A DNA stretch of 64,000 nt from Plantactinospora soyae (GTDB taxonomy: Bacteria; Actinomycetota; Actinomycetes; Mycobacteriales; Micromonosporaceae). Where the stretch lies: NCBI RefSeq assembly GCF_014874095.1, contig NZ_JADBEB010000001.1, positions 2,914,001 to 2,978,000 of the forward strand, read 5' to 3'. A program made the translations under genes and the position numbers. Below are positions 12,147 through 17,053 of the stretch, in pieces. Each line of letters opens with the position of its first letter. Position 1 is the first letter of the stretch. The notes beneath the pieces were generated by a model, which worked only from the letters and a program-made list of their open reading frames with translations, had not been told where the DNA came from and searched no databases.

Positions 12147-13799
12147 ATGGCGGACTTGTTCGAGGACTACCGCCTCGGCCCTGGCTGGGACGAGATGTTC
12201 GGCGCGCCGGGCATGCCCCGGGAGACGTACGAAGCCCTGCACGCCACCCTGCAACCGTTGTCCAGTGTCGAACTCCGGGTTCGGGCGGAGGTACTGGCCC
12301 GGGCGTTCCTCGACCAGGGGATCACCTTCGCACTCAAGGGTGTCGAGGGGCCGTTCCCGCTCGACATCGTGCCCCGGATCATCGCCGCCGGCGAGTGGCG
12401 GGTGGTCGAGGCCGGAGTCGCCCAGCGGGTGAAGGCGCTGGAGGCCTTCCTCGCCGACATCTACGGCGCCGGCCAGGTCCTCGCCGACGGCGTGGTACCC
12501 CGCCGGGTCGTGGTCACCAGCGCGCACTTCCACCGCGAAGCCGCCGGCATCAGCCCACACAACGGGGTACGGATCCACGTCGCCGGAGTCGACCTGGTCC
12601 GTGACGAGGAGGGCGCCTTCCGGGTGCTGGAGGACAACGTCCGGGTCCCCTCCGGGGTTAGTTACGTGATGGAGAACCGCCGGGCGATGGCCCACGTACT
12701 GCCCGAGGTCTTCGCCGCGACCCGGATCCAGCCCGTGGAGTCGTACCCGGGGGAGTTGTTGCGGGCCCTGCGCGCGGCGGCGCCGGTCGGGATCACCGAT
12801 CCGACGGTGGTGGTCCTGACCCCCGGCGTGCACAACTCGGCCTACTTCGAGCACGCCCTACTGGCCCGCGAGATGGGCGTCGAGCTGGTCGAGGGCCGGG
12901 ACCTGGTCTGTGTGGGCAACGAGGTCGCCATGCGGACCACCGGCGGCGAGCAGCGGGTCGACGTCATCTACCGGCGGATCGACGACGAGTTCCTCGATCC
13001 GGTGCATTTCCGGGCCGACTCGGTGATCGGGGTCGCCGGGCTGTTGAACGCGGCCCGGGCCGGTCGGGTGACCATCGCCAACGCCGTCGGCAACGGCGTC
13101 GCGGACGACAAGCTCCTCTACTCGTACGTCCCGGACCTGATCCGTTACTACCTGGGCGAGGAGCCGACGCTGTCCAACGTCGAGACGTACCGGCTGGAGG
13201 ACCCGGACGTGCTCGACCACGTCCTCGACCAGTTGGACCGGCTGGTGTGCAAGCCGGTCGACGGGTCCGGCGGGGCGGGCATCGTGATCGGCTCCCAGGC
13301 ATCCGACTCCGAACTGGCCGAGCTGCGGACCCGGATCACCGCCGACCCGCGCGGCTGGATCGCCCAGCGCGAGGTGGCGCTCTCGATGGTGCCGACGCTG
13401 ATCGGCAACCGGCTGCGGGCCCGGCACGTCGACCTGCGCCCGTTCGCGGTCAACGACGGCCAGCGGGTCAGCGTGCTGCCGGGCGGGCTGACCCGGGTCG
13501 CGCTGCCCGAGGGCGCGTTGGTGGTCAACTCCAGCCAGGGCGGCGGGTCCAAGGACACCTGGATCCTCGCCGAGCCGCCGTCCGAACTCAGCCCGGTGGA
13601 CCTGAGCACCGGCATCGACCCGGCCGAGCCCGTCGATCCCGCCGAGCTTTCCGAGCCTGACGCTCCGGTGCTGCCCCGGGTACCCACGCCGCGCAGCCCC
13701 GATCCGGGACCGGGTGGCGGGCAGGTCGCCGAACAGCAGCAACAGCAGCAACAGTCCACTCGGGACGCCGGTGCCGACCAGGGGTGGTCGAGATGCTGA
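12147..13799 (+). CDS. circularly permuted type 2 ATP-grasp protein
   Basis: 550 aa, homologous to Rv2411c-type proteins. Visible core motifs are GVEGPFPLDIVPRII, HNGVRIHVAGVDLVRDEEG, VLEDNVRVPSGVSYVMENR, RADSVIGVAGLLNAAR, GNGVADDKLLYSYVPDLIRYYL and VCKPVDGSGGAGIVIG. These provide nucleotide and metal contacts of the permuted ATP-grasp fold. The family is predicted to form amide bonds in a peptide-modifying system with the next two genes. The last 60 residues are disordered and end in seven consecutive Gln (CAG/CAA run near 13734-13754). The stop overlaps the next start (ATGCTGA), so the two are translationally coupled. Confidence 0.9.
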   Translation: MADLFEDYRLGPGWDEMFGAPGMPRETYEALHATLQPLSSVELRVRAEVLARAFLDQGITFALKGVEGPFPLDIVPRIIAAGEWRVVEAGVAQRVKALEAFLADIYGAGQVLADGVVPRRVVVTSAHFHREAAGISPHNGVRIHVAGVDLVRDEEGAFRVLEDNVRVPSGVSYVMENRRAMAHVLPEVFAATRIQPVESYPGELLRALRAAAPVGITDPTVVVLTPGVHNSAYFEHALLAREMGVELVEGRDLVCVGNEVAMRTTGGEQRVDVIYRRIDDEFLDPVHFRADSVIGVAGLLNAARAGRVTIANAVGNGVADDKLLYSYVPDLIRYYLGEEPTLSNVETYRLEDPDVLDHVLDQLDRLVCKPVDGSGGAGIVIGSQASDSELAELRTRITADPRGWIAQREVALSMVPTLIGNRLRARHVDLRPFAVNDGQRVSVLPGGLTRVALPEGALVVNSSQGGGSKDTWILAEPPSELSPVDLSTGIDPAEPVDPAELSEPDAPVLPRVPTPRSPDPGPGGGQVAEQQQQQQQSTRDAGADQGWSRC

Positions 13800-14768: not shown

Positions 14769-15632
14769 GTGACGGTGGGCAGTTGGCGGCTGAAGATCAG
14801 ACACCAGACCGGTTTCACCTACGCCGGGGCGGTCGCCGGGTCGTACAACGAGGCCCGGATGTCGCCGCGCAACGATGCCCGCCAGGCGGTGCTGGACGCG
14901 CGGGTGGAGGTGTGGCCGTCGGCCCGGACCTACCGGTACGAGGACTACTGGGGGACCGTGGTGACCGCCTTCGACCTGCACGAGGCACACGAGTCGCTGC
15001 GGGTCACCGCCTCCTCCACTGTGGAGACGCTGGGCCCCGGTGACCAGTCGGCCGCGACCGACGGCGCCGGCTGGGCGGACCTGCGCGGACTCCAGACCCG
15101 GGACCGCTGGTACGAACTGCTGCTGCCCACCCCGCGTACCGCGCTCGACGAGGAGCTGACCGACCTGGCCGAGTCCGTCCGGGCCGCCCGGCCGACCCCG
15201 CACGCGGCCGCGATGGCGCTCTGCGAGCAGGTACGCGACGAGGTGGCGTACACCTCGGGCGCGACCGGGGTGCAGACCGACGCCGTACAGGCCTGGCGGC
15301 AGCGCAAGGGTGTCTGCCAGGACATCAGCCACCTGGTGGTCGGGCTGCTGCGCAGCATCGGCATCCCCGCCCGGTACGTCTCCGGATACCTGCACCCGGT
15401 ACCGGACGCGGGGATCGGGGAGAGCATCGTCGGGCAGAGTCACGCCTGGGTCGAATGGTGGGTCGGCCGGTGGGCGGCCTTCGACCCGACCAACGGGGTA
15501 CCGGTCGGCGAGCGGCACGTCGTGGTCGGCCGTGGCCGGGAGTACGGCGACGTACCGCCGTTGAAGGGCGTCTACGCCGGGCCGGCCAACACCGGGCAGG
15601 GCGTCGAGGTGACCATCACCCGGCTGCGCTGA
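14769..15632 (+). CDS. transglutaminase-like cysteine protease family protein
   Basis: 287 aa: an N-terminal beta domain typical of bacterial transglutaminase-like proteins (LKIRHQTGFTYAG, then SYNEARMSPR) and a papain-like core. The catalytic triad is visible as Cys in RKGVCQDISHL (about 183), His in QSHAWVEWW (about 224) and Asp in FDPTNG (about 239). GTG 14769 has an excellent SD (GGAGGAGG, 14756-14763). It is the third gene of the ATP-grasp/alpha-E operon, where it is thought to cleave or transfer amide bonds. Confidence 0.9.
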   Translation: MTVGSWRLKIRHQTGFTYAGAVAGSYNEARMSPRNDARQAVLDARVEVWPSARTYRYEDYWGTVVTAFDLHEAHESLRVTASSTVETLGPGDQSAATDGAGWADLRGLQTRDRWYELLLPTPRTALDEELTDLAESVRAARPTPHAAAMALCEQVRDEVAYTSGATGVQTDAVQAWRQRKGVCQDISHLVVGLLRSIGIPARYVSGYLHPVPDAGIGESIVGQSHAWVEWWVGRWAAFDPTNGVPVGERHVVVGRGREYGDVPPLKGVYAGPANTGQGVEVTITRLR

Positions 15633-15670
15633 CCGGCGGATATTCGCTGGGCGGGACGCGGGTGGTGGCG

Positions 15671-15676
15671 TACCGT
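15671..15676 (+). promoter_or_regulatory. -10 box (TACCGT) of the ThrRS-paralogue leader transcript
   Basis: TACCGT is seven bases before the ATG of the leader peptide at 15684, so the RNA should begin with that ATG. No clear -35 hexamer is visible. Confidence 0.5.
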
Positions 15677-15683
15677 GGCCGCC

Positions 15684-15737
15684 ATGCGCAGTGCGAACGA
15701 GACGACCACGCCGGGCGACCCCGGCGTGCCGCACTGA
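15684..15737 (+). CDS. leader peptide with three consecutive Thr codons
   Basis: A 17-codon ORF reading MRSANETTTPGDPGVPH, with ACG-ACC-ACG (Thr7-9) at 15702-15710, upstream of a threonyl-tRNA synthetase paralogue. It appears leaderless. A run of the cognate amino acid placed just before a hairpin is the layout of ribosome-mediated attenuation leaders. The peptide itself is probably without function; ribosome progress over the Thr codons would be the sensor. Too short to be confident from sequence alone. Confidence 0.6.
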   Translation: MRSANETTTPGDPGVPH

Positions 15738-15824
15738 CGCGAACTCTTCGTCGACAGGCCCCGGGGCGATCCGCTCCGGGGCTTCGTCGTACTCCGGGAC
15801 CGGGATCGTCCCAGCCAGATCCCG
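15708..15824 (+). promoter_or_regulatory. predicted threonine attenuator (competing hairpins)
   Basis: Hairpin 1 has perfect 7-bp arms ACGCCGG (15708-15714) and CCGGCGT (15721-15727), beginning at the third Thr codon. Hairpin 2, terminator-like, has a 10-bp stem (15758-15767 with 15773-15782, one G-U pair, five-base loop). A competing pairing, CCCCGG (15719-15724) with CCGGGG (15761-15766), would use the 3' side of hairpin 1 to break hairpin 2. A third stem (15801-15807 with 15818-15824) stands just before the SD of the synthetase. A ribosome waiting at the Thr codons would block hairpin 1 and favour the antiterminator. Confidence 0.55.
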
Positions 15825-15841
15825 ATCTCCAGGAGAAGACC

Positions 15842-17053
15842 ATGGTTGACCACCGCAGGCTCGGCCGCGAGCTCGAGCTGTTCCACGCCGATCCGCTCTC
15901 CGGCGCCGGCCTGCCGATCTGGCTACCGGCCGGCGCCGCCGCCCGGCACAGCGTCGAGTCCTACGTCCGGGAGTTGGAGCGCCAGGCCGGCTACCAGCAC
16001 GTCTACTCGCCTCCGCTGGGCAAGCGCGAGCTGTTCGAACTCTCCGGGCACCTCGGCTACTTCGCCGACGACATGTTCCCGGTGCTGCGGCTCTCCGCCG
16101 ATGACGAGTTCGTGCTCCGTCCGGCACTGTGTCCGCACCACGCCCTCGTCTACCGGGCCCGGGGCCGGTCCTACCGGGAACTGCCGCTGCGGATCGCCGA
16201 GCTGGGCGGGATGTACCGGTCCGAGCGGTCCGGGGTGCTCGGCGGACTCAGCCGGGTCCGGGCGATCTCGCTCAACGACGCGCACAACTTCTGCGCCGTC
16301 GAGCAGGTCGGGGCCGAGGTCGCCGAGATCCTCGACCTGATCCGGGTCGCGCACGCGGCGCTCGGCGTACGACCGGCGGGGTTCCGGCTCTCCCTACGCG
16401 GCCCAGGGGAGAAGTACGTCGGCGACGACGAGATGTGGCAGCACGCCGAGAACCTGCTCCGGGAGGCGCTGTCCGGACTGCCGTACGTCGAGGCGCCCGG
16501 GGAGGCGGCGTTCTACGGGCCGAAGATCGATATCCAGATCCTGGACGGGGCGGGCCGGGAGTCGACCATCTCCACCATCCAGCTCGACTTCGACAAACCG
16601 GCCCGGTTCGACCTCTCCTACACCGACTCCTCCGGCGGGCGCAGCCGACCGGTGATGGTGCACCGGAGTCTGGTCGGCAGCATGGAACGGCTGTTCGCGT
16701 ACCTGATCGAGGTGCACTCCGGCGCCTTCCCGGCCTGGTACGCGCCGGTGCAGGTGCAGGTCCTGCCGGTCGGGCCGGAGCAGTTGGCCGCGGCGGAGGC
16801 GTTCCGGCAGGAGTGCGTACGGGCCGGGCTGCGGGCTGAACTGGTCGGCGATGGCTCGTTGGGCGCCCGGGTCCGGGGTGCCGCCCAGCGCCGGGTCCCG
16901 TACGCGGCCGTGCTGGGTGCCCGGGAGGTGGCGGCCGGTCAGGTGGCGCTGCGGCTGCGGGACGGCCGGGCGGTGGAGCCGATGGCGGCGCCGGACGCGC
17001 TGCGGATGATCAGCGGGATCGTGGCCGCCCACTCGGCGGAACTCCTGCCCTGA
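15842..17053 (+). CDS. short threonyl-tRNA synthetase paralogue (catalytic and anticodon domains only)
   Basis: 403 aa, against about 640-690 for housekeeping ThrRS: the TGS and editing (N2) domains are absent. The class II core is intact. The zinc ligands Cys (RPALCPHH, about 97), His (NDAHNFC, about 147) and His (MVHRSLVGSMER, about 273) are all present, motif 2 has the R-x-E of YRSERSG, and motif 3 ends in GSMER. FYGPKIDIQI and TIQLDF match the active site. The last 95 residues are an anticodon-binding-like domain. It could charge tRNA-Thr without proofreading, be a threonine-starvation or inhibitor-resistant isoform, or activate threonine for something else. ATG 15842 has AGGAGAAG upstream. 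Confidence 0.85.
   Translation: MVDHRRLGRELELFHADPLSGAGLPIWLPAGAAARHSVESYVRELERQAGYQHVYSPPLGKRELFELSGHLGYFADDMFPVLRLSADDEFVLRPALCPHHALVYRARGRSYRELPLRIAELGGMYRSERSGVLGGLSRVRAISLNDAHNFCAVEQVGAEVAEILDLIRVAHAALGVRPAGFRLSLRGPGEKYVGDDEMWQHAENLLREALSGLPYVEAPGEAAFYGPKIDIQILDGAGRESTISTIQLDFDKPARFDLSYTDSSGGRSRPVMVHRSLVGSMERLFAYLIEVHSGAFPAWYAPVQVQVLPVGPEQLAAAEAFRQECVRAGLRAELVGDGSLGARVRGAAQRRVPYAAVLGAREVAAGQVALRLRDGRAVEPMAAPDALRMISGIVAAHSAELLP

Follow-up and report, generated by a model that had tools for sequence, protein, structure and literature searches.

The auxiliary tryptophanyl-tRNA synthetase TrpRS1 of Streptomyces coelicolor is controlled by ribosome-mediated attenuation, and its link to indolmycin resistance is established. 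The thr operon leader of E. coli (Thr_leader in Rfam) carries Thr codons in a leader peptide and controls biosynthesis. T-boxes sense tRNA by direct binding, without a leader ORF, and E. coli threonyl-tRNA synthetase (ThrRS) binds operator hairpins that mimic tRNA.

Two studies of actinobacteria bear on the locus described here. According to the portions of a survey used here (PMC1262725), the LEU element of actinobacterial leuA contains a pseudoknot that competes with a hairpin, and its base stem lies at the Shine-Dalgarno (SD) box; these portions give SD-sequestering layouts at leuA and ileS and no structures for threonine genes. In Streptomyces lividans TK24, a leaderless thrL (MKRVRPFLETTPGFVPAR) lies before thrS SLIV_19410 (PMC8079986, 2021; Table 4), and the excerpts of that paper used here describe one hairpin without a U tract, with termination unclear. 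The metL leader of S. lividans in the same table, MSTTSDRTPATEATTTPGARCMCRRMCAF, also contains TTTPG.

The present element lies in a 64,000-nucleotide stretch of DNA (the window, whose coordinates are used throughout; all features are on the + strand) from the genome of Plantactinospora soyae, a single contig of 9.7 Mb. The initial annotation had placed a Thr-sensing attenuator before a truncated ThrRS paralogue, and all the sequence features that it named were found in the window. In two genomes (loci L394 and L397), the truncated paralogue follows a leader peptide identical to S. lividans thrL, and the thrL–thrS pair in the excerpts of PMC8079986 is therefore very probably, judging by sequence, an orthologue of the window element. 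The annotation's unverified claim that no Thr leader of such a kind had been described is thus not supported. A DNA pattern written for the S. lividans leader gave no matches in 61 genomes; it was too strict at the Val and Leu codons (as L397 illustrates) and is no evidence of absence. Elsewhere in the window, a long ORF (12147–13799) ends in a C-terminal run of seven glutamines (13734–13754), a simple repeat that may differ among strains.

Leader ORF and truncated ThrRS paralogue

As the initial annotation had noted, the window contains a leaderless-looking ORF of 17 codons with three Thr codons. It encodes MRSANETTTPGDPGVPH and extends with its TGA from 15684 to 15737, with the Thr codons ACG-ACC-ACG at 15702–15710. 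A -10 box, TACCGT (15671–15676), lies 7 nt 5' of the ATG, and a leaderless transcript would start near 15684. The SD sequence AGGAG (15831–15835) precedes the ThrRS coding sequence (15842–17053; 403 aa).

The encoded protein matches the NCBIfam thrS profile from position 171 onward, and its Pfam matches are restricted to tRNA-synt_2b and HGTP_anticodon, from which it follows that the N-terminal TGS/editing part is absent. The gene thus reads, as proposed, as a truncated ThrRS paralogue with predicted catalytic and anticodon-binding domains only, and a full-length thrS is also present in the P. soyae genome. The closest titled relative among 80 loci is from Plantactinospora mayteni, at 89% protein identity. 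When 138 paralogues were compared with 72 housekeeping ThrRS sequences at what we take to be the zinc ligands and class II motif positions, these were retained in >90% of the paralogues. The only strict difference between the clades is found beside the Cys of CPxH, where 128/138 paralogues have Leu and 63/72 housekeeping enzymes have Asn.

Conservation was assessed in 139 orthologous loci (9 from the first set, 69 from a family search and 61 from a class search), with some species repeated. The first set comprised 80 loci, nine of them at 57–89% identity and the remainder at ≤46%. The family search detected the paralogue at E ≤ 1e-120 in 222/300 genomes, from which 69 loci were read, one of them twice (L093/L147). 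The class search detected it at E ≤ 1e-110 in 62/394 genomes, and 61 loci were read, with G589 left out.

A TTTP/TTP leader was found in 138/139 loci, spanning 55–100% protein identity, which bears out the Thr runs that the annotation had proposed to look for in related genomes. The sole exception, L207, lies at a contig end with just 103 nt upstream. A TAnnnT -10 box stands 4–10 nt before an in-frame leader start in all 138 (6–7 nt in 131), against a background of 23/2420 random positions. Conservation of the leader and its -10 box is far above chance. The first Thr codon is ACG in 108 loci, ACC in 26, ACT in one and non-Thr in three; it lies outside the hairpin, and 27 of its 30 changes from ACG are synonymous. 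At the second Thr codon, 135 loci have ACG and three have ACC. The N-terminal part of the leader varies in length and sequence, and TTTP and the stem-coded C-terminus alone are retained.

In genus g70, taken to be Streptomyces, the paralogue was present in 116/246 genomes and the leader in 47 of 50 stretches scanned. The three without it are L404, which is not an upstream stretch, L411 and L388. In L388 (G930), a truncated ThrRS is preceded by T (the terminator-like hairpin described below) and an S-like stretch, without Thr leader or the P1 hairpin; the sensor may have been lost naturally here. L411 (G903) is a second ThrRS copy in a Streptomyces-like genome, with a core 57% identical to the window paralogue; this core is part of a longer open frame, preceded by sequence that resembles an editing domain, and no leader was found.

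Ordinary full-length thrS genes were examined at 70 loci from 141 matching genomes, 64 of them with 330 nt upstream. None of these 64 upstream regions had a TTTP leader plus a -10 box or SD; two contained unrelated ORFs with Thr pairs. Run against 394 genomes, a covariance model, R1, gave 59 matches at E ≤ 6e-6; 58 lay directly upstream of the paralogue and one (G531) near a contig end. Including G506 (E 4e-5), R1 finds 59/62 paralogue genomes; G497 was missed, and G450 and G589 have no upstream sequence. As 43 of the 47 training rows came from the 394-genome sample, this search tests specificity, not sensitivity. At E ≤ 0.01, matches were found in 107/394 genomes. Ten matches below the strong 59 were sampled (L232–L241): L237 is a true leader before a full-length thrS, and the alignments of L232, L233, L234 and L238 resemble terminator-only matches. 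Further true leaders may be present among the remaining weak matches.

One genus, g180 (family f19), has a TTTP leader before its only thrS, which is full-length, in 19/20 genomes (loci L325–L329, L334, L335, L338 and L340–L359). As read from these sequences, the putative Thr sensor also occurs upstream of a ThrRS that has its editing domain. Beyond the class, truncated genes with a leader were found in G729 and G839, and G825 has a full-length gene without one. In G839, from another class, the ThrRS (L331) is 50% identical, reads as truncated and has the leader VAHLVHVPTTTPERSGVHV; by this reading the element extends past the class.

RNA helices, covariation and folding

The hairpin P1 begins on the third Thr codon, and the 7 bp reported by the initial annotation were confirmed: CGCCGGG (15709–15715) pairs with CCCGGCG (15720–15726), and the helix grows to 9 bp (15707–15728) in the fold of the full leader. 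The GC-rich terminator-like hairpin T was likewise recovered, here extending over 15756–15784 (15756–15768 with 15772–15784), in the sequence and in relatives. It is followed by CGTCGTAC, with no real U tract. The 6-bp alternative pairing of the annotation stood in part: CCCCGG in the 3' arm of P1 (15719–15724), the antiterminator strand, can pair with CCGGGG in the 5' arm of T (15761–15766), but T was not excluded at equilibrium folding.

The annotation overlooked two helices: S, a hairpin that sequesters the SD, and K, which covaries and links S to the terminator. S (15792–15835) pairs GGAG of the SD (15832–15835) with CTCC (15792–15795) and has the inner stem CGGGATC/GATCCCG. Helix K has 10 pairs, one of them G-U, between GGGGCGATCC in the 5' arm and loop of T (15763–15772) and GGATCGTCCC (15803–15812); in relatives, K is conserved and shows covariation. 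Segment D, which forms the S 5' arm, is partner to the SD region in S and to the 5' arm and loop of T in K. An Rfam search of 15400–16100 gave no match at E ≤ 1, including T-box and Thr_leader.

Covariation was counted in alignment A1, with 47 sequences from outside Micromonosporaceae (12 of 59 were dropped for long indels or divergence); a second alignment, A2, was too gapped and was excluded from the counts. For P1, T and S together, 89.7% of cells were paired, compared with ≤54.4% when the strands were slid. The annotation had proposed a search for compensating changes in both hairpins. The six counted P1 pairs are invariant in all 47 rows; for P1, T and S together, double-change cells number 26, compared with 14.2 in shuffles (0/500 shuffles as high). 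The number of double-change pairs was not above shuffles (139/500). In K, 96.9% of 423 cells were paired (≤60.5% when slid) and 13 were double-change cells (0/500 shuffles); further pair types were not above shuffles (489/500). RNAalifold, unaided, selects K and P1, not T or S.

An own-versus-swapped test was carried out on 128 distinct sequences (69 from Micromonosporaceae and 59 others) with 2000 random re-pairings. For both K (T 5' arm and loop with D) and S (D with SD), the mean pairing of own strands beats all 2000 re-pairings in both groups, a test that kinship within groups can inflate. Compared with single-sequence shuffles the excess is modest, with 14 to 23 sequences per test reaching 0.05. 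In Micromonosporaceae and in the others alike, the SD is sequestered in S. For P1 with the T 5' arm, own strands had no advantage over swapped ones (equalled by 1947 and 1851 of 2000 re-pairings); 96.1% of the antiterminator cells are paired in A1 and invariant, and it is owing to this near-invariance that the pairing has no covariation support.

Folding was used to simulate the states of the leader. With a ribosome stalled on the Thr codons and the transcript truncated just past the T loop, so that T is incomplete, at least 4 antiterminator pairs are expected in 134/138 sequences, compared with just 17/138 when the leader is unoccupied. Own antiterminator pairing was above that of shuffled leaders in 58 of the 69 sequences tested, and the shuffled leaders also pair (7.5 pairs versus 9.7 for own). 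T begins at least 10 nt past the leader stop codon in 135/138.

Equilibrium folds of 135 sequences (75 Micromonosporaceae, 60 others) did not switch. T wins with the ribosome stalled or at the stop codon, with mean P(T) of 0.87 and 0.83 in Micromonosporaceae and of 0.92 and 0.95 in the others; the antiterminator can therefore act only kinetically. The SD was equally hidden in every state (0.27–0.30 unpaired across the 135 sequences). It stayed so (0.27–0.30 unpaired) with the greater part of the T 5' arm excluded from pairing, which means that S outcompetes K in these folds. In the window's stalled fold, the outer part of S yields to pairing with the P1 3' arm while T stays; this was not so in L119, the other fold inspected. 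Together, K and the lower half of T may make up a pseudoknot.

Proposed mechanism and alternatives

The element is real and conserved, and very probably senses Thr-tRNA. The reading that we favour, and hold with good though not full confidence, is that of a ribosome-mediated attenuator that responds to threonyl-tRNA and controls a spare, editing-free ThrRS. The leader and hairpins are retained across many actinobacteria, and the spare enzyme is therefore probably made when Thr-loaded tRNA runs low. S and K suggest that translation would be controlled too.

Transcription would probably start at or just 5' of the leader ATG. With ample Thr-tRNA, the ribosome would reach the stop codon and cover the P1 3' arm, and T would form; transcription would be stopped where T is a working terminator, and S would be left hiding the SD. 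With scarce Thr-tRNA, the ribosome would stall on the Thr codons and cover the P1 5' arm. The 3' arm, now free, could capture the T 5' arm while T is still incomplete and prevent T; the segment of the T loop may bind the S 5' arm as helix K, exposing the ribosome-binding site. In this scheme we infer the stalling, the termination, the signal for induction and the step from K to a free SD; the last is not reproduced by equilibrium folds.

On class assignment, the TTTP/TTP run in 138/139 loci, with synonymous variation at the first Thr codon, and the cognate amino acid of the gene downstream, a ThrRS paralogue by NCBIfam and Pfam, point to a leader-peptide attenuator, a kind that also includes translational ones. 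The conserved SD-pairing hairpin of a translational attenuator is present in S. The window element is not classed as a proven transcription-terminating attenuator because its T has no U tract, as would mark an intrinsic terminator.

If the proposed mechanism is true, many actinobacteria hold a spare ThrRS without proofreading that is released only at threonyl-tRNA shortage, and one RNA would connect the quality of translation with the supply of threonine and perhaps with natural inhibitors of ThrRS. The S and K layer would be a compact case of one stalled ribosome governing both transcription and translation of its target, and the leader on the sole full-length thrS of genus g180 would offer a natural comparison of one sensor on two enzyme kinds. 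A tentative extension, which we regard as doubtful, is a double-locked switch: one leader ribosome would set both the transcription hairpin and, through K as a covarying alternative helix or pseudoknot, access to the ribosome-binding site. An error-prone, editing-free ThrRS would thereby be kept dependably silent until the charged tRNA-Thr pool collapses, as it might under a natural ThrRS inhibitor, and in one genus the same leader would have been transferred to, or retained on, a full-length thrS that is the only copy.

Each of the two layers could also act alone. If attenuation is purely transcriptional, T would act as the terminator, with S and K arising as by-products of GC-rich sequence; the layout is classical, a real U run follows T in some relatives such as L013, and blocking T in silico does not free the SD. 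Classical attenuators were found at trpS and leuS in the 2005 Actinobacteria survey, in the portions used here (PMC1262725). The covariation of S and K, which beat slid and swapped controls, and the missing U tract at several loci including the window make this account rather unlikely. In purely translational attenuation, T would not terminate but merely withhold the K strand, and the switch would act on the ribosome-binding site. This fits the hiding of the SD by S in both groups, the covariation of K and the frequent lack of a U tract after T, and the same portions of the survey describe SD-sequestering hairpins at actinobacterial ileS T-boxes (PMC1262725). It sits poorly with a long GC-rich T at the terminator position, with a real U run in a few relatives, and with an SD that stays hidden in silico when T is blocked, and we judge it unlikely.

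Compatible with the favoured attenuator is the idea that the gene encodes an inducible, inhibitor-resistant ThrRS, so that the leader would in effect detect inhibitors of the borrelidin or obafluorin type. Ribosomes stalling on the Thr codons would signal Thr-tRNA loss of any kind, there is a precedent in Streptomyces TrpRS1, and the Leu beside the CPxH Cys distinguishes the clade. On the other side, the glycine equivalent to E. coli Gly463 is retained in >90% of the truncated clade; a change of Gly463 confers resistance, and this glycine is the route to obafluorin and borrelidin resistance described in the sections of PMC11252418 used here, so this known route does not apply. The borrelidin-pocket positions named in the excerpts of PMC4389257, compared by eye, were not distinctive in the truncated clade either. 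We consider inhibitor resistance possible but doubtful; a starvation enzyme and a stress enzyme are further candidate roles.

Autogenous control, with ThrRS binding the leader hairpins as tRNA mimics in the style of the E. coli operator, would suit an element that belongs to a ThrRS gene, and the part of PMC2965389 used here cites E. coli ThrRS as regulating its own expression. The T loops (ATC, GAGT, GAGC and others) are unlike a Thr anticodon loop, and a coding Thr run with synonymous variation would have no role; an E. coli-type operator was rejected on these grounds as very improbable. Even less probable is a functional micropeptide encoded by the short ORF, with the hairpins merely an intergenic terminator. 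TTTP is conserved as it would require, but the N-terminal part varies while TTTP and the stem-coded C-terminus alone persist, and the element is tied to thrS genes; this reading was also rejected.

Comparison with known systems

With S. coelicolor TrpRS1, the element shares a spare synthetase behind a leader with cognate codons in actinobacteria. The amino acid is threonine here and tryptophan there, and drug resistance, established for TrpRS1, is here a candidate role only. Like the E. coli thr operon leader it has Thr codons, but it precedes a synthetase gene rather than biosynthesis genes, and it gave no match to that family at E ≤ 1.

As in the translational ileS T-boxes of the survey portions used here (PMC1262725), a synthetase gene lies under an SD-sequestering hairpin; unlike those, the window has a leader ORF and no Rfam T-box match in 15400–16100. 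The LEU element, as given in the same portions, is alike in its leader peptide with cognate codons and its pairing at the SD box. It serves leucine biosynthesis and its codon run pairs with the SD, whereas here a separate segment, D, does so (PMC1262725).

The closest likeness is to S. lividans thrL: in both, a Thr leader that looks leaderless lies immediately upstream of a ThrRS gene, with a hairpin without a U tract (PMC8079986, excerpts). Its leader ends in VPAR and a stop codon, the window's in VPH. The account of thrL in those excerpts does not include an editing-free paralogue, conservation beyond the strain, an SD-sequestering hairpin or an alternative helix. In the open-access literature, to the extent of the texts used and with subscription papers outside its scope, no account of the S/K layer or of a wide distribution was found. 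The element is a variant of leader-peptide attenuation with prior art in one species, going by those excerpts of PMC8079986; its wide conservation, its association with the truncated clade and the layer formed by S and K appear to be new.
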